A stretch of DNA of 64,000 nucleotides from contig NZ_JAAVVZ010000006.1 of the NCBI RefSeq assembly GCF_023910635.1, positions 124,001 to 188,000 of the forward strand, written 5' to 3'. Origin of the DNA: Sphingorhabdus sp. Its GTDB lineage: Bacteria; Pseudomonadota; Alphaproteobacteria; Sphingomonadales; Sphingomonadaceae. The notes below the pieces were generated by a model. That model searched no databases. It saw only the letters and a program-made list of their open reading frames with translations, and was not told the DNA's origin. The position numbers and the translations under genes are program-made. Positions within the stretch are counted from its first letter, which is position 1; each line of letters begins with the position of its first letter. Below are positions 15,977 through 39,616 of the stretch, piece after piece.

Positions 15977-16012
15977 GTCATTCACTCCATTACGGTCAGG
16001 GGATGGACCAGT

Positions 16013-16564: not shown

Positions 16565-16644
16565 GACGAGGCTCCGATCTTGATCATCGCGATTCGGAGG
16601 AAACGCGTTCAACCTCAACATAAGCATTGACGCCAAATAGAACA

Positions 16645-16674
16645 AGGCCGCCTACCCAGTCGGATAGACGGCCT
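16645..16674 (-). terminator. Possible terminator after the small hypothetical gene
   Basis: AGGCCG (16645-16650) pairs with CGGCCT (16669-16674), with further pairing of CTA/TAG inside. On the minus strand the hairpin is followed by TTGTTCTATTT. It would end the M16 peptidase transcript before tspO. Confidence 0.4.
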
Positions 16675-16713
16675 GGAATGTGCGTGTCAGCGCAAGACGC
16701 GCGCTGCGGCCTT

Positions 16714-17013
16714 TTACTTGCGTGTGCCGGTCAAGCCCATCGAACCAAAGGCACCAGCCTTCACCTCGCCGGTCATGGCATCGCCCGACACGGTTGCTGT
16801 GGCGTTCAAATGCATTGGCATAGGCACAGTGATGTCCATGCCCCAGCTCAACGTATCGCCATCAACGGTGCCATTGGCGATGTCCATGGAACCAAGTCCA
16901 CCTGACATCTGGCCCGAAAAGCTGCCGCCGTCGCTGTTGACGGTCAATACTGCTTTTTGGTCACCCATCGGGCTTTTGATTGTTACGTCCCAGTCACCAT
17001 CAACTGCTGCCAT
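16714..17013 (-). CDS. Small hypothetical protein, beta-rich
   Basis: A 99-residue protein I do not recognise by name. It has no signal peptide or helix; it is built of alternating strands (WDVTIKSPMGDQKAVLTVN, GSFSGQMSGGLG, GTVDGDTLSWGMDI, ATATVSGDAMTGEVKAGAFG), suggesting a small beta-barrel or lipocalin-like fold. AAGGAT stands just before the ATG. It begins 12 nt after the stop of the M16 peptidase gene and is probably translated from the same message. Family members may occur in other sphingomonads, from memory only. Confidence 0.7.
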   Translation of the reverse strand: MAAVDGDWDVTIKSPMGDQKAVLTVNSDGGSFSGQMSGGLGSMDIANGTVDGDTLSWGMDITVPMPMHLNATATVSGDAMTGEVKAGAFGSMGLTGTRK

Positions 17014-17024
17014 ATCCTTGCTCC

Positions 17025-23888: not shown

Positions 23889-26465
23889 ATGAACCTCGAA
23901 AAATTCACCGACCGCGCCAAGGGTTTTCTGCAAAGCGCACAGACCGTTGCCATTCGCATGAGTCATCAGCGGATCGGGCCTGAACATCTCTTAAAAGCTT
24001 TGCTGGAGGATGAGCAGGGCATGGCGTCTGGCCTGATCAAGGCCGCTGGCGGCGACGCGGCGACCGCGTTGCGCGAAACCGATGCGGCGCTTGCGAAGGT
24101 GCCTGCGGTGTCCGGCGGCGGCGCGCAGCAGACCCCCGGCCTCGACAATGACGCCGTGCGCGTGCTCGATGCTGCTGAACAGGTCGCGCAAAAGGCGGGC
24201 GACAGCTATGTCACTGTTGAACGCCTGTTGCTCGCGCTAGCGCTTGCGCAGACCAGCACAGCAGGCAAGGCGTTGGCAGCAGCAGCCGTCACAGCCGAAG
24301 GGCTGAACGCCGCGATCAACGAACTGCGTGGTGGCCGCTCAGCCGATACTGCGGGCGCAGAGGACCGTTATGACGCGCTGAAGAAATTTGCGCGTGACCT
24401 GACCGAAGTCGCGCGCGCTGGAAAGTTGGACCCCGTCATCGGTCGCGATGAAGAGATTCGCCGCACCATCCAAATCCTTGCGCGCCGTACAAAGAATAAC
24501 CCCGTGTTGATCGGCGAACCCGGCGTCGGCAAAACGGCCATTGCCGAAGGGCTGGCCTTGCGCATCGCCAATGGCGACGTGCCCGATAGCCTGAAGCATC
24601 GCAAATTGCTGTCACTCGATATGGGCGCGTTGATCGCGGGTGCAAAATATCGCGGCGAATTTGAAGAGCGGCTCAAAGGTGTGCTTGACGAGGTTAAGCA
24701 GGCCGAGGGTGACATCATCTTATTCATCGACGAAATGCATACGCTTGTCGGCGCGGGCAAAGGCGAAGGCGCGATGGATGCCGCCAACCTCATCAAGCCT
24801 GCTTTGTCGCGCGGTGAACTGCACTGCATTGGTGCAACCACGCTGGATGAATATCAAAAACATGTCGAAAAAGACCCGGCGCTACAACGCCGGTTTCAGC
24901 CGATTTTTGTCGGTGAGCCTACCGTCGAGGACACGATTTCCATCCTGCGTGGGTTGAAGGAGAAATATGAACTGCACCATGGCGTGCGTATTACCGATAG
25001 TGCGCTGGTGAGCGCCGCCACCTTGTCGCACCGTTATATTTCCGACCGTTTCCTGCCGGATAAAGCCATCGACCTGATGGACGAGGCGGCGTCGCGCCTG
25101 CGGATGGAGGTGGAATCCAAGCCGGAAGAGATTGAAACGCTCGACCGCCGGATCATCCAGTTAAAGATTGAACGCGAAGCGTTGGGCAAGGAAAGCGATG
25201 CCGCGTCCAAGGACCGTCTGACCAATCTGGAGGGTGAGCTGGCCAATCTGGAGCAGCAATCGCTTGAACTGACGCAGCGTTGGCAGGCCGAAAAAGACAA
25301 GATTTCTGCCGAAGCCAAAATCAAAGAACTACTCGATGGTGCACGCATCGAGTTGGAGCAGGCGCAGCGGTCTGGCGACCTAGCCAAGGCGGGCGAACTG
25401 CAATATGGCACAATACCCGGGCTGGAAAAGCAACTAGAGGACGCGGTGGCCGCAGCCGGCAATGCGATGTTGCGCGAAGAAGTGACCGCGCAAGATATTG
25501 CCAGCGTCGTCAGCCGCTGGACCGGCATCCCCGTGGACAAGATGCTTGAGGGCGAACGCGACAAGTTGCTCAACATGGAACAGCTTATTGGCGCGCGCGT
25601 CATTGGCCAAAAGGACGCGGTGGAAGCCGTCTCCAAGGCGGTGCGCCGTTCGCGCGCGGGCCTTCAGGACCCGAACCGCCCGCTTGGTTCGTTCCTGTTC
25701 CTTGGGCCAACGGGTGTCGGCAAGACCGAGCTCACAAAAGCGCTCGCATCATTCCTGTTCGACGACGACAATGCGATGGTCCGCATCGACATGTCCGAAT
25801 ATATGGAAAAGCACAGCGTCGCCCGCCTCGTCGGCGCGCCTCCGGGCTATGTCGGCTATGAAGAAGGCGGTGTGCTGACCGAGGCGGTGCGCCGCCGCCC
25901 CTATCAAGTCGTCTTGTTTGACGAAGTTGAAAAGGCCCATTCGGACGTATTCAATATCCTGCTGCAGGTTTTGGATGATGGCCGCCTGACCGATGGTCAG
26001 GGGCGCACAGTGGACTTCTCCAACACGCTCATCATCCTGACATCCAATCTGGGCAGCCAGCATATGGCCGCGTTGGAAGACGGGCAGGATGTGAAAGAGG
26101 TCGAGCCGCAAGTTATGGAAATCGTGCGCGGCCATTTCCGGCCCGAATTCCTGAACCGGCTGGACGAGGTCATATTGTTCCACCGCTTGGGCGCGCAACA
26201 TATGGCCCCGATTGTCGATATTCAGGTGCAGCGGGTGCAAAATTTGCTCAAGGATCGCAAGATCACTTTGTCCTTGTCAGACGAAGCCAAAGCATGGCTT
26301 GGCCGCGTCGGCTATGACCCTGTATACGGCGCACGCCCGCTAAAACGCGCAATCCAACGTTATTTGCAGGACCCGCTGGCCGACATGCTGCTACGCGGCG
26401 GCATCCCCGATGGCGCGACGGTGACGGTGGAAGAGGGTGATGGGGGGTTGAATTTGGCGGTATAG
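23889..26465 (+). CDS. clpB: ATP-dependent disaggregase ClpB
   Basis: Hexameric AAA+ chaperone that extracts polypeptides from aggregates together with DnaK. The 858-residue product has all the domains: Clp N domain (residues 1-145), AAA1 with Walker A GEPGVGKT near 209-216, a coiled-coil middle domain rich in Glu/Lys/Leu (about 400-525), and AAA2 with GPTGVGKTE near 607-615. [25 protein letters not shown] is the second Walker B region. The gene stands alone with about 125 bp of upstream sequence. An RpoH-type promoter is expected for this gene but only weakly visible. Confidence 0.97.
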
Positions 26466-26560
26466 GCGGCACTTCGAAATGTGGCCTTAGACCACAAATA
26501 TGCTAAGGGTGGCCTCTCAACGATTGCAATTAAGACTGAGAATGCGCATGAAATTTTGCA

Positions 26561-28030
26561 ATGGCTGACGACAAACATTCAATAATTCGCCAGGCAGATG
26601 CTGCACTAAACGCTGGGGACATCACAACCGCTGTCAGCGGATATCGCCGCGTTCTGGGCATTGATAATTCGCTCGCAGATGTTTGGTTTAACCTTGGTTA
26701 CGCCCTACGCATCCAGCGGAAATTTCCCGAGGCGCTCGATTGCTATTCGCACGCACTCGATCACAAAGTGCAGCGGCCTGAGGAGGCCCATCTGAACCGC
26801 GCTGCAATCTTCACTGAACAGCTCAATGCTTACGACAAGGCACGCACTGAACTGGACGCGGCATTAGAGAGGAATCCTGTCTTTGTCGCAGGTTGGCTCA
26901 ATCTTGGTTTACTTTACGAAGATACCGGCAATATCGCGGAAGCTCGTTACGCATATGGACGTGCTCTGCAAATTGACCCCCAAAGCGGCCGAGCATTGTC
27001 CCGACTGGCAGCGATTGCAACATTTGAAAATAAAGTATCGACTGAAGTGGGCCGACTTGAAGCCGCCCTTCGTTTGCCATCGCTAGCGCCCAATGATGCC
27101 GTTGATATCGCCTTCGGATTGGCCAACCTATATGATGCTATGGGGCGGCATGAACAAGCTTTTGCGCTGGCGGCGTCCGCCAATCAAGCACAACATCGAT
27201 TTTTGCCGGAAGCTTCGCGATATGATCCAGTGGCGCATGAAAAGTTAATTGATTCAATTTGCAACATGACCCTTCCGCCTCCTCTCCTAAAGGCAGATAA
27301 GGGTTTGGAACCAAATGTTTTTATCTGCGGATTGTTTCGGTCTGGTTCGACACTCGCCGAGCAATTACTCGCTCGTCACAGTGATATAGTCGCCGGCGGT
27401 GAGCATGACTTTATTCCAGAAACTGTGCGCGGCAATCTGCAGCCCTATCCAGAAAAGCTTGCGACAGCCACTCGCGCCGAACTCGAGAGCATTCGCCTTG
27501 ATTACGTGTCGCGCCTTGCTGCAAATGGCCATGTTTCCGGCCAAGTCACGGACAAAAGATGCGATAACTTTCTGCACATCGGCTTCATAAAAACTCTGTT
27601 TCCTCATGCCAAAATTGTCCACAGCTATCGCGCGCCGCTAGACAATGCCGTATCGCTTTTTTTCCAGCATTTTTCCGAAGATATCAATTACAGTATGGAT
27701 CTTGGCCACCTTGGCCACTGGTTGGCGCAATACCGCAAAATCATGACCCACTGGAAATCATTATATGGCACCGACATTCACGATTTTAGCTACGATGCGA
27801 CCGTGCATAGCCCTGAAGCTGAAGTGCGCGCCATGGTCGAGCATTGCGGTCTCACATGGCGCGAAGGTTCCCCGTCTACGAACAATGTTGTAAAGACAGC
27901 GAGTGCCTGGCAGGTTCGGCAACCTTTGCATCAACGATCGTCAGGCCGTTGGCGGAATTACGAGCACGACCTGTTGCCAGTGATGCATGCGGCGGGAATT
28001 GACGAGGATGGTAACTGGTTATCGTTCTGA
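26561..28030 (+). CDS. TPR-sulfotransferase fusion protein
   Basis: A 489-residue cytoplasmic protein. The N-terminal half (about residues 1-220) is tetratricopeptide repeats, for example AWFNLG-type units ADVWFNLGYALRIQRKFPEAL and AGWLNLGLLYEDTGNIAEA. The C-terminal half is a PAPS-dependent sulfotransferase: the 5'-phosphosulfate loop is GLFRSGSTLAEQLLARH near residue 256, and the 3'-phosphate motif is RAPLDNAVSLFF near 357. The acceptor is unknown; TPR domains often hold protein partners, so a protein acceptor is plausible. It is convergent with the beta-hydroxylase gene, stops 4 bp apart. It shares its architecture with the product of 32932-34404. The ATG has no good ribosome site. Confidence 0.88.
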   Translation: MADDKHSIIRQADAALNAGDITTAVSGYRRVLGIDNSLADVWFNLGYALRIQRKFPEALDCYSHALDHKVQRPEEAHLNRAAIFTEQLNAYDKARTELDAALERNPVFVAGWLNLGLLYEDTGNIAEARYAYGRALQIDPQSGRALSRLAAIATFENKVSTEVGRLEAALRLPSLAPNDAVDIAFGLANLYDAMGRHEQAFALAASANQAQHRFLPEASRYDPVAHEKLIDSICNMTLPPPLLKADKGLEPNVFICGLFRSGSTLAEQLLARHSDIVAGGEHDFIPETVRGNLQPYPEKLATATRAELESIRLDYVSRLAANGHVSGQVTDKRCDNFLHIGFIKTLFPHAKIVHSYRAPLDNAVSLFFQHFSEDINYSMDLGHLGHWLAQYRKIMTHWKSLYGTDIHDFSYDATVHSPEAEVRAMVEHCGLTWREGSPSTNNVVKTASAWQVRQPLHQRSSGRWRNYEHDLLPVMHAAGIDEDGNWLSF

Positions 28031-28034
28031 GATC

Positions 28035-29303
28035 TTAACTAGGGGCGCGTTCGCCTGTCAGCGTTAAGAAGTCAGCGACCAATTCGCGTTCGCCCATGGT
28101 CATATGAGGGTTCCAGACGTCAAAAATCAGGACGATCCGGTGTGCATCGCTATCGTTCCACGCTTCGTGCTCAATCGTATCGTCGAAAGCAAATGCCTCC
28201 CCTTCAATCCACTCTCGAGTTTCGCCACCCACGCGAAATCGGCACCCGTCGGGGATAACTAATGGCAAATGAATGATAGCACGTGTGTTCGTGACGCCCG
28301 TATGCGCTGGAATATGGGATTTAGGCTTGAGTATTGAGAAGAACACCGTTGGTGCCTTACCCGGTATCCTGTTGTGCGGGATGGCAGACATTGCTGCGGC
28401 AGTTTCAGGACATTGATTACAAATCTCATCATTGCGTTCACCATATTCCCACAAGAAACAGGCGCTCCAATCTTCGCTCTTGTCGAGCGCTGACCATTTG
28501 TTGTCAGGCGTGCCTGGCTCCAGTTGTACATAAGGTCTGATGGCAGCATTGCGGTTTTCCCAAAGTGCTTGCGCTTCCCGCCGGATGGCCGACGTGTGTT
28601 TTTCCAGTTCGGTTAGCCACGGAAAATGGTGTCGGTCAAAAAATTCGTCTGCGGGCAAGAAGGGAAAATGCACGCCTTCACAATTGTTGGCGTAGATCTG
28701 TCGGCGTCCAAGGCTGTGATCAATGCACGCATTTACCCGGCGTGCAGCGGTGCCCATCGCAATCAATTTCTCACCGAGCTGCTCGTCGACGCGATGGGAG
28801 AGCTCCGCATTATGCTTTAAAAGATAGGTTGTTCCCCGTTGCAACGCGTCTACAACCAGTGGCGGTGGTTGTGACATTGACGCCGCCATTTGGACGATTC
28901 CGCTCCAGTTCAGGGCAGCTTCCACATTGAAACCCTGGCGCTCATCAAGCTCAGCAAGGCGTAGCAAGGCAATAAAATCGCGCCGATCAAGGGCCAGTGC
29001 CGCCTTCAAACTTAACCGTTCACCCTGATCATCACCCAATCCACGACAGGCTGTAGCAAGGTTGACCAGCAACGCCGGAGCCATAGGGTCGGCAGCAGCG
29101 GCCGCAGCGAAATATGTCTTTGCAGCGGCAAAATCCTGCGCCGCTAGCACATGCATGCCGCTGGCATTAAGGACCATGGCATTGTGCGGTGCATGCGCAC
29201 GTGCAGCAGCCAACCGCTGCGCAGCGACGTCATGCATGCCGGACTGACGCGCTTCATGTGCCTCGTTCAAAAGCCGATTAATGATAAGCTCTGTGGATGT
29301 CAT
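28035..29303 (-). CDS. TPR-aspartyl/asparaginyl beta-hydroxylase
   Basis: A 422-residue protein with TPR-like helices in the first 200 residues (ASGMHVLAAQDFAAAKTYFAAAAAADP) and an Asp/Asn beta-hydroxylase domain at the C-terminus. The domain has the HTGVTNTR segment with iron ligand His334, HLPLVIPDGC, WIEGEAFAFDD, the second ligand His379 in TIEHEAW, and Arg389 in HRIVLIFDVW for 2-oxoglutarate. This follows, from memory, the wording of animal ASPH (HTGPTNCR, FEHEVW), which also joins TPRs to this domain and hydroxylates Asp/Asn in secreted proteins. The target is unknown. No signal peptide or helix is seen. It follows a receptor gene and its terminator on the same strand. Confidence 0.88.
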   Translation of the reverse strand: MTSTELIINRLLNEAHEARQSGMHDVAAQRLAAARAHAPHNAMVLNASGMHVLAAQDFAAAKTYFAAAAAADPMAPALLVNLATACRGLGDDQGERLSLKAALALDRRDFIALLRLAELDERQGFNVEAALNWSGIVQMAASMSQPPPLVVDALQRGTTYLLKHNAELSHRVDEQLGEKLIAMGTAARRVNACIDHSLGRRQIYANNCEGVHFPFLPADEFFDRHHFPWLTELEKHTSAIRREAQALWENRNAAIRPYVQLEPGTPDNKWSALDKSEDWSACFLWEYGERNDEICNQCPETAAAMSAIPHNRIPGKAPTVFFSILKPKSHIPAHTGVTNTRAIIHLPLVIPDGCRFRVGGETREWIEGEAFAFDDTIEHEAWNDSDAHRIVLIFDVWNPHMTMGERELVADFLTLTGERAPS

Positions 29304-29358
29304 GTTGAATGTTAACCCTGACGGAGCCGAGTGGCAAGAAAGTGTGTTGTCACAAAAA

Positions 29359-29384
29359 AGAGGCGGCCCTCGCGGACCGCCTCT
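29359..29384 (-). terminator. Rho-independent terminator after TonB receptor 29410-32376
   Basis: AGAGGCGG (29359-29366) and CCGCCTCT (29377-29384) form a perfect 8-bp stem; on the minus strand it is followed by TTTTTTG. It stands between the receptor stop and the beta-hydroxylase start. Confidence 0.85.
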
Positions 29385-29409
29385 ACATTTTTTAAATCAA
29401 TCGGTTCTA

Positions 29410-32376
29410 TTAGAACTTCATGCGAAGCGATGCGCCATAACGACGACCGATGGTGTCATATGTCGACGGATAAGTGTTGCCGCCATTATATGCTGTCGAA
29501 CCTGCGCTCGAACCAACCAATGGTGGCTGCTTGTCGAAAATGTTAAACGCATTGAAAGCTAATTCGAAATTTTCGGTGACGTCGAAACGTACCGCTAGAT
29601 CGAAATAGTTATACGCTTTGATTCGATTGAAGTTCACCTGACGACCGACCAGCGCTCCGCCACCGGTGATTGCACCGACGAACAAGTTTTGCTGCGCCGC
29701 TGTGGCAAAGCCGCGCGTAACTGCATCACTGGCTTGACCTTCATATTCGACGCTGGAGAGGTGACGCCACAACAGCGACACATCAACATTTTCGAACGAC
29801 AAGGTCGTACGCTGGTTCCAGCTATACTCGGGCTGGATCGAAAGACAGTTAACACTGTAATACCCGACGCAGTCACGATCGACTGAAGTAGGCGCAGCTT
29901 GGAACTTCGAGCTTAAGGCATAGTTGCCGCTGAAACCAAGACTCAGATCGGCAAAGCCGAGGTCAGCCTTGTAGTTCAGCACCAGGTCGATGCCGTCGGT
30001 CGCCAATTCACCCAAGTTTGTAAGCGGTTGTGGCAAGCCCGGGATGGGGTTTGCCGCGGTCGATGTTCCGCTCAAACGACCGTTCACCGCGTTACGACGA
30101 ATTCCGGTACAAGCAGGGTCAGTTGCCGAAGCCGCCGTAATATTGCCGAAGCAAGCCTGGATAATGTCGCCGGGCGTCGCCTCTTTGATCGCATTGGTCA
30201 CCTTGATGTTATAATAATCAATCGACGCGGTCAGACCATTCAGGAAGCCGGTTGGTTGCAACACAAGACCGAAGGAATAGGTAGCGGCCTTTTCCGGACG
30301 GATATTCGGGTTACCACCACCAGTTACGTTAGCTTGAGCCGCTGCTGGGTTAAGTATTGTGCCTCCTGTGACGGATGATGCTGGTGCACCCTGTGCCCGG
30401 CAAACTGCGGCCAAATTTGCATTGGTCGTTGGTGCTGCGCCTGCACATGGGTCAATCAACAAATTATCAAGACCCGTTACAACCGGCCTAAACAACTCGC
30501 CGATGTTAGGGGCACGAACAGCGCGCTGATAGTTTGAACGAAACTTAACGCCTTCGACAGGCTCCCAGTTACCACCGAACTTGTAGGTAGTTGCTGTGAA
30601 CGACGGATTTCCGGATGCGCGAACGCTGTAATCGGAATAACGCACACCCGCTTCAACGCTCAAATCGTTGAAGAATGGCTTATCCGATACGATCGGAACG
30701 TTAATCTCGCCAAAGGCTTCATAAACGCTAAATCCGCCATTAAGTGGCAATACAGCGCCACCGGCACCGCCTAATTCACCTGGAACCTGTGCAAGGTTGT
30801 CAGGACGGCGCTGCGCACCATAATCCCGATGCTCGCCACCCACTGCGAACGATACCGCTTCGGCAGCTGACGGGATCGTGAACCCGAAATCACCTGACAA
30901 CACAGCATGAACTTGAGCCAAAGACGCCGCGTTTGTGACTGAGCTAGTGACGCCGCCAACAAAAGCACCTTGCGCGCTAGTGATCGAACCCGATGGTCCA
31001 AAAATGTTGAGCGGTACGCAGGAATTGGCAGTGTTCGTGCAGGTTGTTGTGTTATTTGCATTAAGTGCCTGCTGAACGCGAGAGTTAGCGACATAACCCG
31101 AACGGGTTTCTTCGTTTTCACTCTCACCGTATGAGCCATAAGCATCAAACTTCAAGTTATCGGTGACATTAAGCCGTACGCCGGCCATCACGTCGAAAAC
31201 TTGAGTTACATACGTGCTGATGCGTGGGCCCAATTCAACCGAGCGACGATATACAGCGCCCAACGGGATGGCTGCATTTCCACCGCAAGTTGGTCCGGTG
31301 CCCGGTGCCAGGCCAGCAGCGACACAAAATTGGTCGCGAAGCGCCGCAGGCAGATATGGGTTGTTGCCGGGAATAGTAAGCGTGTTTCCGAAGATACCCG
31401 AAGCAGCGATGATTGAACTGACGGTGTTCTTGGAGAACAATGCGCGCGAATAGACCTCTACAGTGTCCGAAACTTCATACCTTGTCTGTCCAAAAAAGTT
31501 AAACCGTTCGAACGGGGTCTGATAGATGTTGAATGGGTTGAAGTTAAACGGCGCGTAAGGAGCAACAAGCCCCGTGCCGGTTGGGTTGATTTGAAGCGTA
31601 CCTAAACCAGCGGACGAAAATGTTGTCGGAGCAGATGTCGGGCTGTCGCCGCCTGCAAAGCCGGTGGTTGACCCAATAACGAATGTACCAGTATCGCGCG
31701 CACCAAAATAAATCGGGTCAGCTTCCTGATAGCCAATGCTCAACACCGCATTACCGCGGCCGTCATCGAAATTCGCACCGACCGTCAGGTCTGCACGAAA
31801 TACGTTACCGTCACCTTTCTCGCTGAGCTGCTGGCTGACCGCAAAGTCAACGCCAGCAAAGTCCTTGCGGGTGATGAAGTTAACAACACCAGAAACGGCG
31901 TCTGCGCCATATGTAGTAGAAGCACCGCCCGTAAGCACGTCAACGCGGTCAACAAGTGCAAGCGGAATGTTGTTGAGGTCAACAGCACCAAACCAGCTGG
32001 AAGGAACCAGACGCTGGCCGTCAAGAAGGACGATGTTACGGTCTGCACCAAGGTTGCGGAGATCGACGCGAGCACTGCCGACTTGGCCATTATTGACGTT
32101 GCCACCAAGGTTTGGAGTCACGCCAGGCAATTCGCGCAATATTTGTTCCGCTGTGTTGCTCTGCCGAAGGCTGATTTCTTCGGCGCCGACGACCGTTACA
32201 GGCGACGTCGATACGACATTAGGGTTCTGGATTAGCGAACCAGTTACAATGATTTCGCCTGCCGCTTCTTCTTCAACATCGGCATCCTGGGCAAACGAAG
32301 GCGTTGAGATCAACGCCAAGCCCAATGCCAACGGCGCTGCTGCATATTTCAATTTGCTGATACGTGTGTTTTTCAC
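29410..32376 (-). CDS. TonB-dependent receptor
   Basis: Outer-membrane receptor of 988 residues. It has a signal peptide (MKNTRISKLKYAAAPLALG, cleavage near STPSFAQ), a TonB-box region GEIIVTGSLIQNP, a plug with RELPGVTPNLGG, RVDLRNLGADRNIVLLDGQRLVPS and GGASTTYGADAVSGVVNFITRK, and a long barrel ending RRYGASLRMKF. This is the sphingomonad/Caulobacter style of large receptor for carbohydrates or peptides, not the siderophore type at 2700-4826. Its first 14 residues and the leader before it match those of the receptor at 34484-37585. A strong terminator follows, then a TPR-hydroxylase gene. The substrate is unknown. Confidence 0.93.
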   Translation of the reverse strand: MKNTRISKLKYAAAPLALGLALISTPSFAQDADVEEEAAGEIIVTGSLIQNPNVVSTSPVTVVGAEEISLRQSNTAEQILRELPGVTPNLGGNVNNGQVGSARVDLRNLGADRNIVLLDGQRLVPSSWFGAVDLNNIPLALVDRVDVLTGGASTTYGADAVSGVVNFITRKDFAGVDFAVSQQLSEKGDGNVFRADLTVGANFDDGRGNAVLSIGYQEADPIYFGARDTGTFVIGSTTGFAGGDSPTSAPTTFSSAGLGTLQINPTGTGLVAPYAPFNFNPFNIYQTPFERFNFFGQTRYEVSDTVEVYSRALFSKNTVSSIIAASGIFGNTLTIPGNNPYLPAALRDQFCVAAGLAPGTGPTCGGNAAIPLGAVYRRSVELGPRISTYVTQVFDVMAGVRLNVTDNLKFDAYGSYGESENEETRSGYVANSRVQQALNANNTTTCTNTANSCVPLNIFGPSGSITSAQGAFVGGVTSSVTNAASLAQVHAVLSGDFGFTIPSAAEAVSFAVGGEHRDYGAQRRPDNLAQVPGELGGAGGAVLPLNGGFSVYEAFGEINVPIVSDKPFFNDLSVEAGVRYSDYSVRASGNPSFTATTYKFGGNWEPVEGVKFRSNYQRAVRAPNIGELFRPVVTGLDNLLIDPCAGAAPTTNANLAAVCRAQGAPASSVTGGTILNPAAAQANVTGGGNPNIRPEKAATYSFGLVLQPTGFLNGLTASIDYYNIKVTNAIKEATPGDIIQACFGNITAASATDPACTGIRRNAVNGRLSGTSTAANPIPGLPQPLTNLGELATDGIDLVLNYKADLGFADLSLGFSGNYALSSKFQAAPTSVDRDCVGYYSVNCLSIQPEYSWNQRTTLSFENVDVSLLWRHLSSVEYEGQASDAVTRGFATAAQQNLFVGAITGGGALVGRQVNFNRIKAYNYFDLAVRFDVTENFELAFNAFNIFDKQPPLVGSSAGSTAYNGGNTYPSTYDTIGRRYGASLRMKF

Positions 32377-32397
32377 GGTGTAGCCCCTTCTTTAATG
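32342..32397 (-). repeat. Conserved receptor 5' leader, copy 1
   Basis: The start codon region and about 20 nt upstream of this receptor are nearly identical to 37552-37602 before the other receptor, including TACGTGTGTTTTTCACG across the first codons and CTTTAATG beyond. The shared part encodes the common signal-peptide start and carries the translation initiation region. Confidence 0.75.
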
Positions 32398-32404
32398 CCA
32401 TGGT

Positions 32405-32931
32405 TTAGCGGTATACTCGCCGCCCCATTGGCTGTTCAACTCCCTAGCTTTTCCACGACCGCAATGCGCGCAAATGGTTTGCGCGCCGAGATGGAAACCT
32501 TCCGGATTGTCCGCGCTTTGGCGGATACGCGTGACCTGCGCAATAAGTTGGAACGAAATTACAAATATATTTGACCAATGTCGCATTTTTGCAACAGTAG
32601 GTTAAAGCGAAGCTGATAGGATTTGCAGGTGTATGGATATACTACTGAAAAACCACTTATTTCAGTGACAACATTGTCGGTCAAAGGGGTAGCAACCGAT
32701 TTCCGCTTGCACGCACTTAATGTATCTTTGCTCAATATTTTCTTAGCTCAACGCGCCTCTGCTCGGCGTCCTGTGTGCAGGGTCTTCCCCGAACAATGCG
32801 GATGCCGGTTCAAGCGCCTCATTCAGCTTATTCGACGTCATGTTCGGGACAGTCTGGCAAACATGCTCTGCGCTATGGCATCCCTTATGTTGCGAGGGTG
32901 TCGGTTCAAGACGAACAGGACTGCTTAAATT
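32405..32931. other. 527-bp intergenic stretch without a supported gene
   Basis: Between receptor 29410-32376 and the TPR-sulfotransferase 32932-34404. The receptor-proximal part (to about 32600) should hold its promoter and has a TTTGGCGGA...TGCGCAA pattern like that before the other receptor. The part 32623-32928 has an open frame of 101 codons on the plus strand, but its composition (many Arg/Cys/Leu, no domain) does not support a gene. It may be a decayed insertion. Confidence 0.5.
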
Positions 32932-34404
32932 TCAAACAAATGTACAAAACTCCAACCGCGCAGTTTCATAAGCTTCCACAAATTGGTCCATATACGCGTG
33001 ATAGTGCGCTGAGTTTCCCACAGATGTTGTGTATATGGGCCGCCTTACTTGAATAACGCTAGCCGTTTTGACTGGCCGCCTGTTTTCATGCGGGCTCAAT
33101 TGGGCCGGTTCAATCTGTAATCCACAAAAGCGCGTTATCCGATCGATCTCAATTTCAGGATTTTGAACAAGATCTGCGTAATCTACCACCAATAATTTTT
33201 CGCCAAGCAAGCTACTCCAGTGGGTAAATAGCGCATCTTCGACGGCAAAATGATATGCAATATTCGAGAGCGACCACGACCATTCCATGCCCCGAAGAAA
33301 CCAAGTGCGATAGGCCGACCAAGCACAATCCAACGGATCGCGGCGAAGCCATATTATAGGCGATGCAGGAAATATTGCCGCAATCAAACCGGCGAAACGG
33401 CTTGTGTCTAACGACTTATCTACAAAGAATCCATTGCCCTCATGACGCTGTCTGAGCAGGTAACAATATAAATTTGCAAGCTCCGAGGATGACCCGCCAT
33501 GCAACCTGAATCTTGCAAAATCAGCCGCTGCGTTACCTGAGTCTTGGGTGACGAGCTGCATCAACCCTAATTCTTCTCCGCCAACGACTTTGCTATGGCT
33601 ATTTAGAATCTGCTCAACCAACGTCGTACCTGAGCGGGGTAATCCAGACACAAATATTGGATGCAATGCTTTAGTTGGTGTCCGAATATCATCCGGACGC
33701 GACGCCTTGTCCATTTGCCAACCCGAAGCTACCCTAACCGCATCAGCTTTGTCTGCCGAAAATTTATATGGCGTGACGCCCTGCTTCTTTTGGGCACCAA
33801 CGGAAAAGCTTGCAAAAGCCTTTCGATAATCACCCGCTTCGTGGAACATGTTTCCGAGCGCGTAATGATAGGCGCTTAATTCAGTCATATTGGATTGGAA
33901 TAATCCCGGATCTACTGCCATTAAAGCGTCTATATCAGCTGCTTGCATCGGTCCGGCGATCGAGAGTGCAAGCCAGCTTTGGCCCGAATACGGCGCTGCC
34001 TTACAAGCACGCTGCAGCTTCTCACGCGCCTCACTAACTCTGCCAAGGTTGAGCGAAAGAGTGCCTGAGCTATAATAATATTCCGCCATCGTCGGCGTTC
34101 CGGGAGGAAGCTTTGCAAGAATGCGGTCCGCTTCTTCAAGTTGGCCGAGCTGAGCCAGCAACGCAGCCCTTTCAAACTGAACCGGTGGAGTGTCTCCAGC
34201 AGAGGCGCAATAATAGTCCATTGCGGCCAGGGCATCCTCAACTTCACCATTTTTTTTTGCAATAGCGGCCATTGACCGCCACCTTCCGGCAAGAGGCGGC
34301 TTTGCCCTGATGATATCTTTTACCAGCTGGGCCGATTCTGCGCGGCTATTCCGACGCAGTGCATCGCCAAGCTTGTGTATCAATACTTCGGTATCATACA
34401 CCAC
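32932..34404 (-). CDS. TPR-sulfotransferase fusion protein
   Basis: A 490-residue protein with the same plan as the product of 26561-28030: TPR-type helices over about the first 220 residues (for example AEYYYSSGTLSLNLGRVSEAREKLQ), then a PAPS sulfotransferase domain. The phosphosulfate loop is SGLPRSGTTLVEQILNSH near residue 250 and the 3'-phosphate motif RRDPLDCAWSAY near 354. The start is GTG with AAGGA 6 nt upstream, only about 25 nt after the terminator of the preceding receptor, so it depends on readthrough or a hidden promoter. The acceptor is unknown; association with receptors suggests a protein or peptide passing through or belonging to the envelope. Confidence 0.88.
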   Translation of the reverse strand: MVYDTEVLIHKLGDALRRNSRAESAQLVKDIIRAKPPLAGRWRSMAAIAKKNGEVEDALAAMDYYCASAGDTPPVQFERAALLAQLGQLEEADRILAKLPPGTPTMAEYYYSSGTLSLNLGRVSEAREKLQRACKAAPYSGQSWLALSIAGPMQAADIDALMAVDPGLFQSNMTELSAYHYALGNMFHEAGDYRKAFASFSVGAQKKQGVTPYKFSADKADAVRVASGWQMDKASRPDDIRTPTKALHPIFVSGLPRSGTTLVEQILNSHSKVVGGEELGLMQLVTQDSGNAAADFARFRLHGGSSSELANLYCYLLRQRHEGNGFFVDKSLDTSRFAGLIAAIFPASPIIWLRRDPLDCAWSAYRTWFLRGMEWSWSLSNIAYHFAVEDALFTHWSSLLGEKLLVVDYADLVQNPEIEIDRITRFCGLQIEPAQLSPHENRRPVKTASVIQVRRPIYTTSVGNSAHYHAYMDQFVEAYETARLEFCTFV

Positions 34405-34430
34405 CGTAGTTCCTTGCCCTCGAAAAAGAG

Positions 34431-34456
34431 AAAAGGGGCTGTCTCCAGCCCCTTTT
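34431..34456 (-). terminator. Rho-independent terminator after TonB receptor 34484-37585
   Basis: AAAAGGGGCTG (34431-34441) pairs with CAGCCCCTTTT (34446-34456) around a 4-nt loop. On the minus strand a TCTCTTTTTC tract follows. It separates the receptor from the TPR-sulfotransferase gene starting at 34404. Confidence 0.88.
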
Positions 34457-34483
34457 CCCCTCTTTTATCGGTCATGTCAGCAG

Positions 34484-37400
34484 TTAAAAGCGCAATCCGA
34501 ATTGCAGACGGATTGAACGTGGCCCCTGATATCGGGTTGCTTCCCCGAATGTATTGCGTGGACGTCCGTTGTTGAGCGTGCCCCGCTCTTCAAAATCAAG
34601 CGCGGCATTTTCGTTGAAGACGTTAAACACGTCGAGCCGGAAATCACCTTGAAAGCTATCAGTTGGCAATCTGAACACAAAGCTCAGATTGGTTTGCGTT
34701 TGCCAATCGCTCTCAAAAACACTGCCACGCGGTGTAAGCGCAGCTACCGGACTATTCACATTCACCGGGACACGCTCGTCGGTTATGACACTGCCGCTTG
34801 CATCCACATTACAATAGTAACCCGCCGCCCCATAAAATTGACCAAAGGGGTCAATTGATGCCGGAATTCTTCCGATACAACCGAATTTACGCGGTGACGT
34901 AGCACTGAAATTTGCACCCACTGTTAGCCAGTCGGTGAGTTTGTAGCTGCCGTATAGTTTCAAGTTATGGCGACGATGGTTCGGTGAAAGTCCCAATGTA
35001 CCATTCGTCAGACCTGGCTGATCAAAGTCAGTCGTCAAACCAGCATCAGTCTGGCCATTGTCAGACTTCACTGATCCTTCGTAGTTTCCAAATAGCTTCG
35101 ACCAAGTGTACGAACCGGATAGGCTCCACAAGCCGTCGAATGCACGGTCTACTTTCAAGGTAACCGCATCATAATTACGCTTGGCGGAAGGCAGGCCCAA
35201 CTCTTCTGCGGTAAAGTCAACTGTGCGCAGGCCTGTCTCACCATTGATGGGATCGGACAAGGTTACCGTTGCGCCCTGACCCGGATTTAACAACACATAT
35301 TGGTGAAATCCTGACCAAATACTGCTACATCCTGAAATACCTTCGGCGGCGCAATAATTATTGATTGCAGCATCGATTGCAGCGTCTTCCAAGGCCGCGT
35401 TCAAACGAGAGCGCGTATAGTAAAGTCCGGCACTCCAGCCACCGCCGAATTTACGCTCAGCACCAATGATATATTCATCAACCGATTGTGACTGCAGTGA
35501 CTTTGAAACAGTCGATTCCGTCGGTGTTGCGATACCATCAGAAAGTATAGTGCAATTGGTGCCGCCGCCACTTGGACAAGCTGTGGCGCCAGGTACAGTA
35601 TTGATGGCTGCTCCGATAATCGGCGTTCCGTCTGCATTAATACCATTCAAAACGTTGAAACGGGTAAAATCAAGCTCAGCGCCCGCAAGACGTATGTTTG
35701 TGTTTGCTGCAACTGGAAGATAATAACGACCAAAAGATCCGTACAGTTTCGTCGTTGAGTCATTGAAAACGTCAAATGAGAAACCCGTACGCGGGGCCCA
35801 GTTATCGCCTGACTTGTAATAAACGTCACCGACAACATTACTGTTCTGGAAACGGTCATTCCGCAAACCAAGGTTCAACACCAACCGGTCGGAGAAGAGA
35901 CTCCAGCTATCCTGAATGTAGAAGGCTTCATTTTGCGAATCAAACGAACCGCCGTTTACAAATGTTCGGGCCGTCACATAGTTCACATTAGGCGCAGTAA
36001 CGTCAGAGTCGCCCGAAAGACCTGAATTGAAAATAGTGAAGTTGGCACCGCCCGTGCGCGTGTTAACGGTATTTGTCGTCAACTTTTCACGGTCATAACC
36101 GAACTTAATGCTATGCGAACCGAGAAGATCAAAGCTCAACCCCGCATCGGCTCGATAAAATTCCCGAGTGTCATTGCTCAACGATATGCCTGCAACCGAG
36201 TTTGCAAGAGATTGCCCAGTACGTGAGTCAAACACATTTGGATAGGTATCGTCTGACGAACCAGTCGTGTCCCGGTTTTTATTTTTTCCGTAAGCGGCAG
36301 AAATTGTCAGCCAATCGGTGAATTGACCCGTGTAACGGCCAACATAGTTTTCTCCGCCAAAACCGAATACCGTTTGGCCAGTGCCGGCACCTTGACCGCG
36401 CGTCAGAGTTGTCACTACGTCATTGAAGGCTACATAGCCATAGCTGTCCGAAACCGTCCTGCCTGTCGTATTGAAGTAAGTAGCCTCGAAACGATGCCCA
36501 TCCAGCGGAATGGCATCGACCTTGACCGCGTAAAAAGGACTGCTTGACCTATTTCTGTCAAAACGTGAACCAACCTGATTCAGCACATCGGTGGTTCCGA
36601 CCCGCGAGAGACTGGTAACGGTGTCAGTTGATGTCACATTGCGCGTTTCATATAGGCCGTAAACGAAAAGCCTGTCCTTAATGATCGGACCCGAAGCATA
36701 GAATGTTGAGTTTATGCGGTGGGCGGACTCACGACTATTTTCGCTGAACACTGTGTCCGTTGCGTTTGAACGCAACCAGTTTGGTTCATAATTTACCAAC
36801 ACGCCAGCATGAAAATCATTTGATCCGGACTTGGTGACCGCGTTTATAATACCACCGGTAGCGCGACCGAATTCTGCGCTATAACCGCCATTCTTGACTT
36901 CAACCGTCTCATAAAATTCAAATGGTATGGCAACTGCGCCCAATCCCTCACGGAATTCCGTAATGTTCAGACCGTTCACGTAATAAGCATTTTCAGCCAC
37001 CGACGCGCCAGCAATATTCGGCAAGTTGCCGAAAGCCGAATCACCCTGTGTCGTGCCAGGAGCTAGCAATACCACGGACGTAATGTCGCGCGCGACAGGC
37101 ACGCGTGTGGCCAGCTCTCCGATTTCGATAACAGAGCCAGTTGTGTTCCGTGTGAAATCTACAATAACCGACCGACCTCCGCTAACAACAATATCACCGC
37201 TACCGCCCTGTGCAACGAGCGAAAATTGGTTCGCTGAGCTGTCTGATCCAAGGTTCACAGAGTCATCGCTGAAAGTATCATAACCGTCAGCGCTAATCGT
37301 GAAGGTGTAGCTACCGGTCGGCAACTGGGGAATTCGATAGCTACCATTTGAATCGGTTGTCACCGACCGCTCGAACCCTTGATCATTCGATTTAATGGCA

Positions 37401-37585
37401 ACAGTCGCCCCTGAGATCGCCTGTCCGTCGGTGCTTACAACACGTCCCGATGCACTAACGTTGGTATAATCCTGAGCCATTGCTGGTGTTGCGACGATCG
37501 CCGTTACGGCGACGCCTGCACCCATGATTGATAGCGCCTGCAATGCAGCGGCATATTTCAAATTGCTGATACGTGTGTTTTTCAC
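34484..37585 (-). CDS. TonB-dependent receptor with carboxypeptidase-like regulatory domain (Oar-like)
   Basis: Outer-membrane receptor of 1033 residues. After a signal peptide (MKNTRISNLKYAAALQALS, cleavage near ATPAMAQ) comes a carboxypeptidase regulatory-like Ig domain (residues about 45-125: SGRVVSTDGQAISGATVAIKS, GSYRIPQLPTGSYTFTISADGY). A plug follows with YYVNGLNITEFREG, VEVKNGGYSAEFGRATGGIINAVTKSG, then a barrel ending RSIRLQFGLRF. This is the Oar/SusC-like layout used for large or protein substrates. Its start and leader match those of the receptor at 29410-32376. Upstream lies a 335-bp regulatory region with a 12-bp palindrome; downstream a terminator and a TPR-sulfotransferase gene. 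Confidence 0.93.
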   Translation of the reverse strand: MKNTRISNLKYAAALQALSIMGAGVAVTAIVATPAMAQDYTNVSASGRVVSTDGQAISGATVAIKSNDQGFERSVTTDSNGSYRIPQLPTGSYTFTISADGYDTFSDDSVNLGSDSSANQFSLVAQGGSGDIVVSGGRSVIVDFTRNTTGSVIEIGELATRVPVARDITSVVLLAPGTTQGDSAFGNLPNIAGASVAENAYYVNGLNITEFREGLGAVAIPFEFYETVEVKNGGYSAEFGRATGGIINAVTKSGSNDFHAGVLVNYEPNWLRSNATDTVFSENSRESAHRINSTFYASGPIIKDRLFVYGLYETRNVTSTDTVTSLSRVGTTDVLNQVGSRFDRNRSSSPFYAVKVDAIPLDGHRFEATYFNTTGRTVSDSYGYVAFNDVVTTLTRGQGAGTGQTVFGFGGENYVGRYTGQFTDWLTISAAYGKNKNRDTTGSSDDTYPNVFDSRTGQSLANSVAGISLSNDTREFYRADAGLSFDLLGSHSIKFGYDREKLTTNTVNTRTGGANFTIFNSGLSGDSDVTAPNVNYVTARTFVNGGSFDSQNEAFYIQDSWSLFSDRLVLNLGLRNDRFQNSNVVGDVYYKSGDNWAPRTGFSFDVFNDSTTKLYGSFGRYYLPVAANTNIRLAGAELDFTRFNVLNGINADGTPIIGAAINTVPGATACPSGGGTNCTILSDGIATPTESTVSKSLQSQSVDEYIIGAERKFGGGWSAGLYYTRSRLNAALEDAAIDAAINNYCAAEGISGCSSIWSGFHQYVLLNPGQGATVTLSDPINGETGLRTVDFTAEELGLPSAKRNYDAVTLKVDRAFDGLWSLSGSYTWSKLFGNYEGSVKSDNGQTDAGLTTDFDQPGLTNGTLGLSPNHRRHNLKLYGSYKLTDWLTVGANFSATSPRKFGCIGRIPASIDPFGQFYGAAGYYCNVDASGSVITDERVPVNVNSPVAALTPRGSVFESDWQTQTNLSFVFRLPTDSFQGDFRLDVFNVFNENAALDFEERGTLNNGRPRNTFGEATRYQGPRSIRLQFGLRF

Positions 37586-37602
37586 GATACACCCTCTTTA
37601 AT
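37552..37602 (-). repeat. Conserved receptor 5' leader, copy 2
   Basis: Counterpart of 32342-32397. The match covers the first codons and the untranslated bases before the ATG, and weaker similarity (GGCTGTT.AA.TCCCT, GGCGGA, TGCGCAA) continues to about 37760. Confidence 0.72.
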
Positions 37603-37741
37603 GAAGCCGAAGTCCGGTGGACTTCCACCATTCAAAGGCTGTTAAAATCCCTGACTTTTCAAACATCGCTGCACTCGCCGGAGAAAATAAACCGAAAAAA
37701 GTGCTGCCGATTGGCTTCACTTTGGCGGAGATGCCAAGTCT

Positions 37742-37799
37742 GCGCAACAAATTGTATCAAGATGTAACTATTAGTTTACATATGTAACATTTGCGCAAC
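37742..37799 (-). promoter_or_regulatory. Putative operator region of the Oar-like receptor
   Basis: A perfect 12-bp palindrome TTACATATGTAA is at 37776-37787, between two TTGCGCAA/TGCGCAA motifs (37791-37798 and 37741-37747). It lies about 190-200 nt before the receptor start. The rest of 37586-37922 holds no gene. The bound regulator is unknown. Confidence 0.4.
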
Positions 37800-37922
37800 A
37801 GTGCCTTGGCGCGCAGTCATTTGCATTGGCCGGGGCTGCGTCGCAGTTAGAAAAATCGTTCATGACAGCGACAGCGCGCTTCGTTAAAGAGGCCTCATCC
37901 GGTTTTCAGAGGCACATCATTA

Positions 37923-38564
37923 ATGTCCGTACGCTCTTTCTTTTCGAAGCTCAGTTTGCTCTTGGTCGGCATTTTTGCCTTTGCCTTGTCGCCCGCCTTT
38001 GCGCAGACGCCTGCACCTGCGCCCGCCGCGCCGGACCTTGAAAACATGCTGGTCTTGGATCTTTCCACCGGTGGGCGGGTTACGATTCAAATGTTCCCAA
38101 CCGACGCCCCTGCCCATGTTGAGCGTATCAAGACGCTAACGCGGCAGGGCTTTTATAACGGCGTGATCTTTCACCGCGTGATCGATGGATTCATGGCGCA
38201 GACGGGGGATCCAAAGGGCACGGGCCAAGGCGGGTCGGAACTTCCCGACCTGAAGGCCGAATTTAACAGAATTCCGCATTTGCGCGGGACGGTGTCGATG
38301 GCGCGGACGAACGAGCCTGACACGGCGAACAGCCAATTCTTCATCTGCTTTCAACCGCGCTTTAGCCTGGATAACAAATATACTGTCTTTGGCCGCGTGA
38401 CATCGGGCATGCAATTTGTCGACGCCATTGAACGTGGCGAGCCGCCTTTGAACCCGAGCAAGGTGCTTCAGGCCTCTATCGCGGCCGACAATGTTCCGCC
38501 GCCTGCGTTTACGCCGCCGCCAGCGCAAGCCCCCATCACTGTTGACCAGTTAAACGCTGAATAA
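37923..38564 (+). CDS. Periplasmic cyclophilin-type peptidyl-prolyl isomerase
   Basis: Catalyses cis-trans isomerisation of Xaa-Pro bonds in secreted proteins. The 213-residue product has a signal peptide ([28 protein letters not shown]) and a Pro/Ala-rich linker. The cyclophilin domain has [26 protein letters not shown] (with the catalytic Arg of FHRVI), [21 protein letters not shown] and [17 protein letters not shown]. The C-terminus is a Pro/Ala-rich tail. queA follows after 17 nt, so the two are likely co-transcribed. Confidence 0.94.
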
Positions 38565-38581
38565 GCGCGAAACACTCCGCC

Positions 38582-39616
38582 ATGCGCGTCGATCTATTTG
38601 ATTTCGAGCTTCCGCCCGAGCGGATTGCGCTGCGTCCCGTCTCGCCGCGCGATTCTGCGCGTATGTTGTGCGTGGGCGGCGATGCTGCACTGGCGGACCG
38701 CTCGGTGCGCGACCTGCCGGCGATGTTGCGCAAGGGTGATTGCCTGATCTTCAACGATACACGAGTCATTCCGGCGCAGCTTCAGGGCAAGCGCGGCAAT
38801 GCCTCCATCGGCGCGACCTTGCACAAACGGATCGACCTGCGCCGTTGGCAGGCGTTTATCCGCAACGCCAAACGCCTGCATCCCGGCGATAGCATCGATT
38901 TTAGCGAAGGCGTTATGGCCATATCCGAAGAACGCCATGACGACGGCAGCTTCACTTTGTTTTTCGAAGGCGATGAGCCGGTCGAAATCCTGCTGCAACG
39001 CGCCGGGACCATGCCTCTACCGCCCTATATCGCGGGTAAGCGGGCAACCGACGCGCGTGATGCGCAAGATTATCAAACGATGTTCGCGCAAAAGGATGGC
39101 GCGGTGGCGGCGCCAACAGCCTCCCTGCACTTCACGCCCGAATTGATGGCCGCGGTGCACGCGGCAGGCATCGAAACGGCAACACTGACGTTGCATGTCG
39201 GTGCGGGCACATTCCTGCCGGTGAAGGCCGATGACACCACCGAACATCGCATGCACAGCGAATGGGGCAGCATCAACGCAGACACAGCGCATCGGCTCAA
39301 TAGCATCCGCGCAAATGGCGGGCGGTTGATTGCGGTTGGCACAACGTCACTACGCCTTGTTGAAAGCGCGGCGGACGAAGTTGGCATCGTGCACCCGTTT
39401 GAAGGCGACACCGATATTTTCATCACGCCCGGTTATCGTTTCAAGGCGATTGGCGGCCTGATGACCAATTTCCATCTGCCCAAATCGACTTTGTTCATGC
39501 TCGTCAGCGCATTAATGGGGCGCGAGACCATGCAGGCGGCTTATGCGCATGCCATCGCCAATGAATATCGTTTCTACAGCTATGGCGACAGCAGCTTGCT
39601 CCTGCCCTGCCCCTAA
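38582..39616 (+). CDS. queA: S-adenosylmethionine:tRNA ribosyltransferase-isomerase
   Basis: Transfers and rearranges the ribosyl group of SAM onto 7-aminomethyl-7-deazaguanine in tRNA, the step giving epoxyqueuosine. The 344-residue product begins [29 protein letters not shown] and has [23 protein letters not shown], the family's [43 protein letters not shown] and [17 protein letters not shown]. All are standard QueA segments. Its stop overlaps the stop of the convergent pyk by three bases. No tgt gene is seen beside it. Confidence 0.96.

Follow-up and report, generated by a model that had tools for sequence, protein, structure and literature searches.

Receptor tyrosine sulfation is a hallmark of animal surface receptors. 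The human sulfotransferases TPST1 and TPST2 are Golgi enzymes without TPR, and their target motifs place the tyrosine in acidic surroundings. Mammalian AspH resides in the ER lumen and has EGF-like substrates. We know of no bacterial outer-membrane protein that is sulfated or hydroxylated, and of no TPR domain in RaxST, the TPST-like enzyme of Xanthomonas.

Two bacterial systems provide the closest described parallels. In methanobactin operons, which also encode the receptor MbnT, the sulfotransferase MbnS (PF00685) is presumed to act on a peptide chalkophore (PMC3621798). In RaxX-RaxST, a secreted 60-residue peptide is sulfated on tyrosine, with PAPS from core genes, before its export by RaxAB, and the accessible part of the source mentions no receptor partner (PMC6637879). 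A literature search covering few subscription papers, judged by titles and the openings of abstracts, returned no report of TPR-sulfotransferases paired with TonB-dependent receptors (TBDRs).

A five-gene block and its two receptor units

The window is a stretch of 64,000 nucleotides from Sphingorhabdus sp. In it, five genes fill an interval with clpB on the left and ppi and queA on the right (Table 1).

Table 1. The five-gene block (26561-37585), its leaders and its flanking genes
Feature	Position	Strand	Description
clpB	23889..26465	+	conserved left flank
ST1	26561..28030	+	TPR + Sulfotransfer_3 (7e-34), Pfam
HYD	28035..29303	-	TPR + AspH-like 2OG/Fe(II) oxygenase; Asp_Arg_Hydrox (6e-46), Pfam
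TBDR	29410..32376	-	988 aa, GTG start, signal peptide; Plug + TonB_dep_Rec_b-barrel, Pfam
5' leader of TBDR	32377..32600	-	TGTTGC-N9-ACA at 32596(-)
ST2	32932..34404	-	TPST-like Sulfotransfer_3 (3e-35) + weak TPR matches, Pfam
Oar-like receptor	34484..37585	-	GTG start; CarboxypepD_reg + plug + OMP_b-brl_4
5' leader of Oar-like receptor	37586..37804	-	TGTTGC-N9-ACA at 37800(-)
ppi, cyclophilin-type	37923..38564	+	right flank, conserved in relatives
queA	38582-39616		next after ppi

The genes form two units, leader-Oar-ST2 and leader-TBDR-HYD, while ST1 stands apart on the opposite strand. A gap of 79 bp separates ST2 from the Oar-like receptor gene upstream of it, and HYD follows the TBDR gene on the same strand after 106 bp. 

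The first-pass annotation had described the two receptors as having almost the same N-terminus. This holds for the signal peptide only, in which 13 of the first 14 residues agree; the barrels belong to different Pfam families. In the DNA, the two genes are nearly identical over about 40 nt that span their GTG starts, and a second, weaker likeness is found about 200 nt upstream. The common N-terminus is part of a conserved DNA leader. Strong conservation of the signal peptide is not in itself a unique trait, as other Oar proteins of the genus are equally conserved. The remaining peculiarity at the locus is a signal peptide common to two barrel families.

An Rfam scan of 26000-38600 gave a single match, below threshold (E 0.15). 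With PADLOC models at E 0.001, there were no matches for the five window proteins or for C3, a sulfotransferase-like protein found in place of ST1 in many relatives, and a known anti-phage defence system was rejected on this ground. A phage origin was also rejected: PHROG matched three of the four proteins scanned, in each case only weakly and to entries whose function is unknown.

Domains and active sites of the enzymes

The three enzymes were initially proposed to share a common plan, TPR followed by a modifying domain. Pfam confirms this, together with a predicted structure for the HYD helices. The HYD TPR_16 match falls under the Pfam cut-off (18.9 against 32.7 bits) and paired helices are visible in the AF2 model, which has a pLDDT of 82.9 and a pTM of only 0.56, the relative placement of the domains being uncertain. 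The PF05118 domain is clear (156.6 bits, cut-off 22.6). AspH is the nearest solved structure by sequence, and the AspH TPR-oxygenase occupies all of ranks 1-10 when the predicted fold is searched with Foldseek. The 2-His Fe site and the Arg, Ser and His 2OG contacts are preserved: HYD residues H334, H379, R389 and H345 are kept in 69/69 aligned sequences and S323 in 66/69; they correspond to AspH H679, H725, R735, H690 and S668, respectively. Where AspH has the substrate contacts K666 and R688, HYD has F321 and I343, and neither position varies much among the bacterial sequences.

Among the sulfotransferases (ST, PF13469), the PAPS-loop Arg is conserved in 99 of 101 sequences, the Glu base in 98 and the 3'-phosphate Arg in 99; ST1 and ST2 retain all three. 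The nearest solved structures to the ST2 domain are TPSTs (8e-7 to TPST2), whereas the match of ST1 to TPST1 is not significant (E 0.03). The suggested parallel with sulfation and Asp/Asn hydroxylation in animals thus stands, by sequence and fold, for HYD (nearest AspH) and the ST2 domain (nearest human TPST2), and ST1 is only weakly TPST-like. A source of PAPS was sought in the genome, as had been proposed, and one APS kinase was found. A hydropathy scan detected no signal peptide in HYD. ST1 is taken as cytoplasmic because its N-terminus has no hydrophobic stretch.

Linkage of the enzyme genes to receptor genes

Random association in other genomes had been named as an observation that would refute a functional connection. 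For the sulfotransferases, the association with receptors is not due to chance: many Sphingomonadales show strong linkage, and linkage clusters on the trees, while it is rare in other orders. In the genomes of three relatives, 15 of the 16 listed STs have a TBDR plug domain no more than 5 kb away, against 2.0 expected, a number that 20,000 simulations never attained. HYD taken alone gave no significant result in these genomes (3/7 within 8 kb of a TBDR, P 0.14). Of 50 TPR-STs in 40 ST-centred loci, hand-picked from the matches within the order, 29 have a receptor gene within 3 kb, compared with 4/32 in other orders of the phylum. Among HYD-seeded loci only 22 of 54 HYD genes are this close to a receptor. 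Other HYD paralogues adjoin, by eye, housekeeping genes (gltB-like, cysK-like).

On the TBDR tree, the ST label changes 10 times (26.2 when shuffled) and the HYD label 6 times (14.2). The ST tree includes a clade of 34 rows, of which 25 are TBDR-linked, 5 are Oar-linked and 4 have no link, and a neighbouring clade of 36 rows, of which 35 have no link and one is TBDR-linked; support is 85 for each. ST2 shares a clade of four rows with two Oar-linked STs, from loci L190 and L153, and an unlinked ST (L224), while HYD falls inside a clade of nine rows, every one receptor-linked. A HYD gene is close to both of the STs nearest to ST1 (L048 and L087). ST-linked TBDRs occur in varied gene contexts.

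Comparable sets of genes are found in other bacteria. In another genus (L190) the order is clpB-ST-Oar-HYD-C3-TBDR, the complement again being beside clpB, and in another family (L192) it is C3-HYD-ST-TBDR. Asticcacaulis carries a TBDR, an ST, a HYD and a TPR-ST gene in a row, the last three with 4-bp overlaps. Asticcacaulis and Diaphorobacter also encode an Asp_Arg_Hydrox-Sulfotransfer_3 fusion protein; the Diaphorobacter fusion gene lies next to one for a large IPTL-CTERM surface protein, and no TBDR gene adjoins it. Within the order, 35 of 147 genomes encode C3, which is absent from the genome studied here; among these 35 the neighbourhood covered is that of G072 (L190), and the linkage of C3 is known from loci found via HYD or ST.

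Candidate substrates and related systems

A stretch of 40 residues with at least seven Tyr occurs in 19/37 ST-linked TBDRs, in 0/39 unlinked and in 0/15 HYD-only receptors, in a test devised after inspection of a first alignment and omitting two rows that are bystanders of an ST (both 0; 19/39 if included). Eighteen of these 19 receptors come from two lineages within a single large clade and therefore represent few independent events. The window receptors have no such stretch, with maxima of 4 and 5 Tyr per 40 residues. A canonical acidic sulfotyrosine context is depleted rather than enriched there: in the ST-linked receptors that have such stretches, 69/168 Tyr in the rich stretches lie within two residues of Asp or Glu, against 241/428 elsewhere in the same proteins. 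The PDB alignments used for locating the stretch on a solved TBDR do not cover it. In HYD-linked TBDRs Cys reaches 0.87%, against 0.37%, but part of the unlinked receptors in that large clade share this excess; Cys and Asn enrichment was discarded as a HYD signal, being at least partly a clade effect.

Our tentative reading, in which we have rather less than even confidence, is that the locus is a receptor-tailoring island: enzymes of the cytoplasm would modify the receptor encoded beside them while it awaits export. Each outer-membrane receptor gene has an enzyme gene next to it, ST2 for Oar and HYD for the TBDR, with ST1 as an addition. The TPR domain may pick the still-unfolded partner in the cytoplasm; sulfate would be transferred to the receptor, probably to Tyr, and residues would be hydroxylated, both prior to Sec export. 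Once in surface loops, the altered residues could modulate ligand binding or conceal the receptor from phages and bacteriocins. Since distinct enzymes follow distinct receptor types, the receptor would be the common factor, and this partner specificity, the fused enzyme and the Tyr-rich stretches together suggest that the receptors are the substrates. Against this reading weigh the small number of independent Tyr-rich lineages and their absence from the window receptors, the depleted acidic context, the clade effect on Cys, the two replaced AspH contacts, the weak linkage in other orders and of HYD genes, and the Diaphorobacter fusion with no TBDR beside it. The original proposal had left the choice between receptors, a peptide and a glycan. 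ST-receptor linkage, the PAPS source and the likeness to animal enzymes support it in part; for its peptide version, no convincing local precursor was found.

A serious alternative, though in our view a somewhat doubtful one, is that the enzymes act on a ligand: an imported or receptor-destined small molecule or peptide would receive sulfate or hydroxyl groups in the cytoplasm, as proposed for MbnS. Oar-like receptors, which to our knowledge are not small-ligand importers, are also paired with the enzymes, and the varied contexts of ST-linked TBDRs make a single ligand class unlikely. A small-ORF scan of 26000-38200 for a precursor peptide yielded two weak candidates, neither convincing, and among the locus genes it showed no precursor ORF preceded by a credible RBS; a RiPP with a local precursor was rejected accordingly. 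Peptide and siderophore genes are absent among the nine neighbouring proteins scanned with Pfam. On the other side, an ST-TBDR pair elsewhere in the same genome (L001) is followed, by eye, by catabolic-looking genes, the methanobactin operons of two Methylocystis join a sulfotransferase with the TBDT family (PMC3621798), and a table in PMC10040529 lists, for relatives of Pontixanthobacter, lasso-peptide genes with sulfotransferases and an aspartyl beta-hydroxylase in between.

Modification of a surface glycan or lipid, with the receptors as neighbours using or sensing the modified molecule, appears unlikely. Many Sulfotransfer_3 enzymes work on sugars and lipids, and the hydroxylases LpxO (lipid A) and OlsC (ornithine lipid) are also PF05118 proteins. 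HYD partly matches the OlsC and LpxO models (103 and 64 bits) but remains far under their NCBIfam cut-offs (450 and 500 bits), its best match by sequence and fold is AspH, and lipid or glycan genes are absent among the neighbours scanned with Pfam. It is less likely still that the clpB-ppi interval is simply an insertion hotspot holding accessory cargo without shared function. Its gene content does differ among relatives, and GC is about 0.50 at 32-38 kb and 0.53 at 26-32 kb, against 0.60 in the adjoining 2-kb blocks (24-26 and 38-40 kb). However, the same families pair at other sites (C23 of the same genome and plasmids of Asticcacaulis, Novosphingobium and Pseudoalteromonas), linkage labels cluster on the TBDR and ST trees, and two bacteria encode the hydroxylase-sulfotransferase fusion.

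Returning to receptor tailoring, it is conceivable, though on balance we doubt it, that bacteria have a dedicated protein-modification system for outer-membrane receptors, in which TPR-bearing relatives of TPST and AspH add sulfate and hydroxyl groups to the receptor they are paired with, ahead of its export, Tyr-rich stretches coinciding with the enzyme gene. If so, these two modifications would constitute a new layer of control on nutrient uptake and on phage and bacteriocin recognition. Sulfated animal receptors would gain a bacterial counterpart and model, and new enzymes for tyrosine sulfation and for Asp/Asn hydroxylation would come with it. Even with the ligand as substrate, receptor-enzyme pairs would guide to the ligands of many orphan TBDRs.

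Compared with known systems, the locus resembles the MbnS/MbnT arrangement in encoding a sulfotransferase alongside a TonB-dependent transporter (PMC3621798); the nine neighbouring proteins scanned here match Pfam families other than those of MbnA, MbnB and MbnC. It resembles RaxX-RaxST in its TPST-like enzyme, and no peptide of the RaxX kind was found at the locus. TPST1 and TPST2, the closest solved relatives of the ST2 domain, are also the top fold matches of the C3 model, whereas their acidic Tyr context finds no support in the Tyr stretches of ST-linked TBDRs. HYD differs from AspH in the two replaced substrate contacts and in having no detected signal peptide, while it shares with it the combination of TPR and a 2-His oxygenase and the Fe/2OG residues (PMC6817910).

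Arrangement of the locus and of its relatives

The genome of this member of the Sphingomonadales comprises 3.05 Mb in 89 contigs. Five genes fill the locus between clpB and ppi/queA. When viewed as transcription units, those of the minus strand form two tandem pairs, in which the TPR-sulfotransferase (ST) gene ST2 lies 79 bp downstream of the Oar-like receptor gene and HYD, encoding a TPR protein with an AspH-like hydroxylase domain, lies 106 bp downstream of the gene for the other TonB receptor (TBDR). ST1, on the plus strand, is convergent with HYD. Because neither the STs nor HYD has a strongly hydrophobic N-terminal stretch, these enzymes are taken from their sequences to be cytoplasmic, the compartment of PAPS and 2-oxoglutarate; both receptors possess a hydrophobic N-terminal stretch. 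Elsewhere in the window, an ORF resembling, by eye, a cytosine-5 DNA methyltransferase lies with its neighbour within a GC dip.

Coordinates of the features discussed
Sequence	Feature	Positions	Strand
Window	whole locus	26561-37585	
Window	ST1	26561-28030	+
Window	HYD	28035-29303	-
Window	TBDR	29410-32376	-
Window	ST2	32932-34404	-
Window	Oar-like receptor	34484-37585	-
Window	methyltransferase-like ORF and neighbour	5081-7143	
L192	2OG oxygenase (PF13640)	7055-7723	
L192	2OG oxygenase (TPR + PF13759)	15277-17151	
L154 (Asticcacaulis)	Asp_Arg_Hydrox + Sulfotransfer_3 in one ORF	7876-9663	
L230 (Diaphorobacter)	fusion gene and flanking genes	6383-11984	

Many relatives carry at the same site clpB, HYD and a gene for a protein called C3, in some cases an ST as well, and one or two TBDRs, followed by ppi, queA and pyk. 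For C3, neither Pfam nor NCBIfam gives a match above cut-off. The 12 PDB matches of its model (pLDDT 79) at E up to 0.001 are sulfotransferases without exception and tyrosylprotein sulfotransferases rank first, with a TMq of only about 0.4. Locus L190, from another genus of the same family, has clpB followed by ST, an Oar-like receptor, HYD, C3 and a TBDR, and in L192, from another family, C3, HYD, ST and TBDR are clustered. Two extra 2OG oxygenase genes adjoin the L192 cluster, and further oxygenase types may thus join the system.

Asticcacaulis has a row of TBDR, sulfotransferase, hydroxylase and TPR-ST genes, with 4-bp overlaps among the last three. The next ORF combines both domains; its deposited annotation has a later start and includes the sulfotransferase part only. 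In Diaphorobacter, hydroxylase and sulfotransferase domains occur in one annotated gene without a TBDR beside it. Such fusion argues for one common substrate of hydroxylation and sulfation. The Diaphorobacter gene is flanked by genes for an IPTL-CTERM surface protein and a DUF4915/TIGR03032 protein. Among relatives from the window's genus, HYD genes stand beside an ST in L150 (genome G029) and L151 (G026), and L151 has a TBDR as well. The HYD genes of L150 fall with the Asticcacaulis type, so that the genus has a second layout of the system.

Association of the enzymes with receptors

The window's genome encodes four Sulfotransfer_3 proteins, one Asp_Arg_Hydrox protein and 31 PF00593 matches. 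Its third ST is located about 120 bp after a TBDR (L001) and its fourth is without an adjoining TBDR (L002). In the three genomes for which plug domains were listed, 15 of the 16 STs placed (the best 16 of 24 matches) lie within 5 kb of a plug domain, against 2.0 expected, and HYD-TBDR proximity is not significant (3/7 within 8 kb, P 0.14).

A wider survey used loci centred on hand-chosen matches, with genes classified by profiles built from those same loci. Within the order, 40 ST-centred loci contain 50 TPR-STs, 29 of them within 3 kb of a receptor; many of the unlinked ones belong to tandem arrays of genome G055, a small-genome relative in which L126, L127 and L130 each include four to five TPR-STs with no adjoining receptor. 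HYD-seeded loci gave 22 receptor-linked HYDs out of 54 (330 aa or more). In a phylum sample of 30 loci from other orders, only 4/32 TPR-STs are linked: those of L204 and L210 to a TBDR and two in L211 to an Oar-like receptor. A class-wide HYD search matched 10 of 142 genomes. In its ten loci three of five long HYDs are linked (L190, L192 and L193), or two of three outside the order, excluding L190 and L191 from the window's own family; for the five shorter HYD-like proteins (L195-L199), too short to be counted here, the gene rows shown contain no receptor. Among eight annotated plasmid TPR-ST loci, from 54 records, a TBDR is present in the same gene row in five and absent in three; one further record inspected carries no annotation. 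Many Sphingomonadales thus show strong linkage, which also occurs in Asticcacaulis (Caulobacterales) and Pseudoalteromonas (Alteromonadales) but is not general. In the halotolerance gene list of PMC10040529 (Table 2), lasso-peptide genes stand amid entries for sulfotransferases and an aspartyl beta-hydroxylase, possibly indicating a doubly tailored lasso peptide.

Before the trees were built, rows more than 80% identical to another were removed. On the TBDR tree (93 rows) the ST-linked label requires 10 changes versus 26.2 when shuffled and the HYD label 6 versus 14.2; no clustering is seen for the small HYD+ST label (8 versus 7.8). The ST tree (FastTree, 94 rows, 34 of 91 forks open) includes a linked clade of 34 rows (25 TBDR, 5 Oar, 4 none; support 85), an unlinked clade of 36 (35 none, 1 TBDR; support 85) and 24 rows outside both. 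ST2 groups with two Oar-linked STs (L190, L153) and an unlinked one, L224 (support 99), ST1 with L048 and L087 (99), both having a HYD gene close by, and the window HYD falls inside a nine-row clade whose members are all receptor-linked (100). We consider the conserved receptor-enzyme association to be real, with high confidence and good support.

A shared receptor leader

The two window receptors belong to different barrel families (PF00593 and PF25183, Pfam) and share 13 of 14 N-terminal residues. About 40 nt, beginning just before the GTG start, are nearly identical between their genes, with fainter likeness across about 200 nt upstream. TGTTGC-N9-ACA occurs twice in the 64 kb (0.5 expected by plain arithmetic), once upstream of each of these receptor genes and on its strand. 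It is not exclusive to them: another TBDR of the same genome (L168) also has it upstream, as do other genes in relatives. The leader also precedes the locus TBDRs of relatives and the Oar-like receptor of L153. Of the 35 plug matches in the window's genome, 30 loci were retrieved, and all but L179 gave a receptor N-terminus to compare; among these 29, the window TBDR is the only one with this N-terminus.

Amino-acid identity among 17 locus TBDRs (136 pairs) is 0.91 in the first 30 codons versus 0.69 in the mature part; strong signal-peptide conservation is by itself nothing unusual for the genus. For the 85 pairs whose mature parts are less than 0.75 identical, synonymous-codon identity is highest in the first 30 codons (0.66, and at most 0.59 in each other 30-codon block), which suggests that selection on DNA or RNA too, or conversion, may lie behind this conservation. 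A palindrome, TGTTGC-N6-GCAACA, occurs about 50 bp before clpB in L044, L045, L046 and L053; the motif in the receptor leaders may be a variant form of this regulator site.

Candidate substrates and comparison with known enzymes

The best single reading, which we hold tentatively, is that the receptor is the putative substrate. Its main rival, that the enzymes act on the ligand and not on the receptor, appears possible if rather doubtful. An exploratory test bearing on a substrate trace, devised after an initial alignment, covered residues 41-650 of TBDR ORFs. At least seven Tyr in a 40-residue stretch were found in 19/37 ST-linked TBDRs versus 0/39 unlinked (Fisher 5e-8, uncorrected for ancestry) and in 0/15 HYD-only receptors; two ST-flanking receptors judged to be bystanders (0/2) were excluded, and their inclusion gives 19/39. 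Phe, Trp and Ser show no comparable rise in ST-linked TBDRs, and Asp and Cys show small ones. Since the stretch is located between barrel strands, often with a Cys pair inside, it is likely an outer loop. Several points count against reading this as a substrate trace. The window's receptors have no such stretch and 18 of the 19 Tyr-rich receptors are confined to two lineages of one large clade. Tyr near acids is also rarer in the rich stretches than elsewhere in these proteins (69/168 versus 241/428), although the overall acidity of the stretches is slightly higher (3.37 versus 2.36).

The catalytic residues are largely conserved. Among 101 STs, the PAPS-loop Arg is kept in 99, the Glu base in 98, and the Arg and Ser of the 3'-phosphate site in 99 and 92. 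The best match of the predicted HYD model is the AspH TPR-oxygenase, whose iron and 2OG residues are kept in 69/69 HYDs of 300 aa or more, with the Ser in 66/69. HYD has Phe and Ile in place of the substrate-contacting K666 and R688 of AspH, so that, judging from these residues, its substrate is unlikely to be an EGF-like Asp bound as in AspH.
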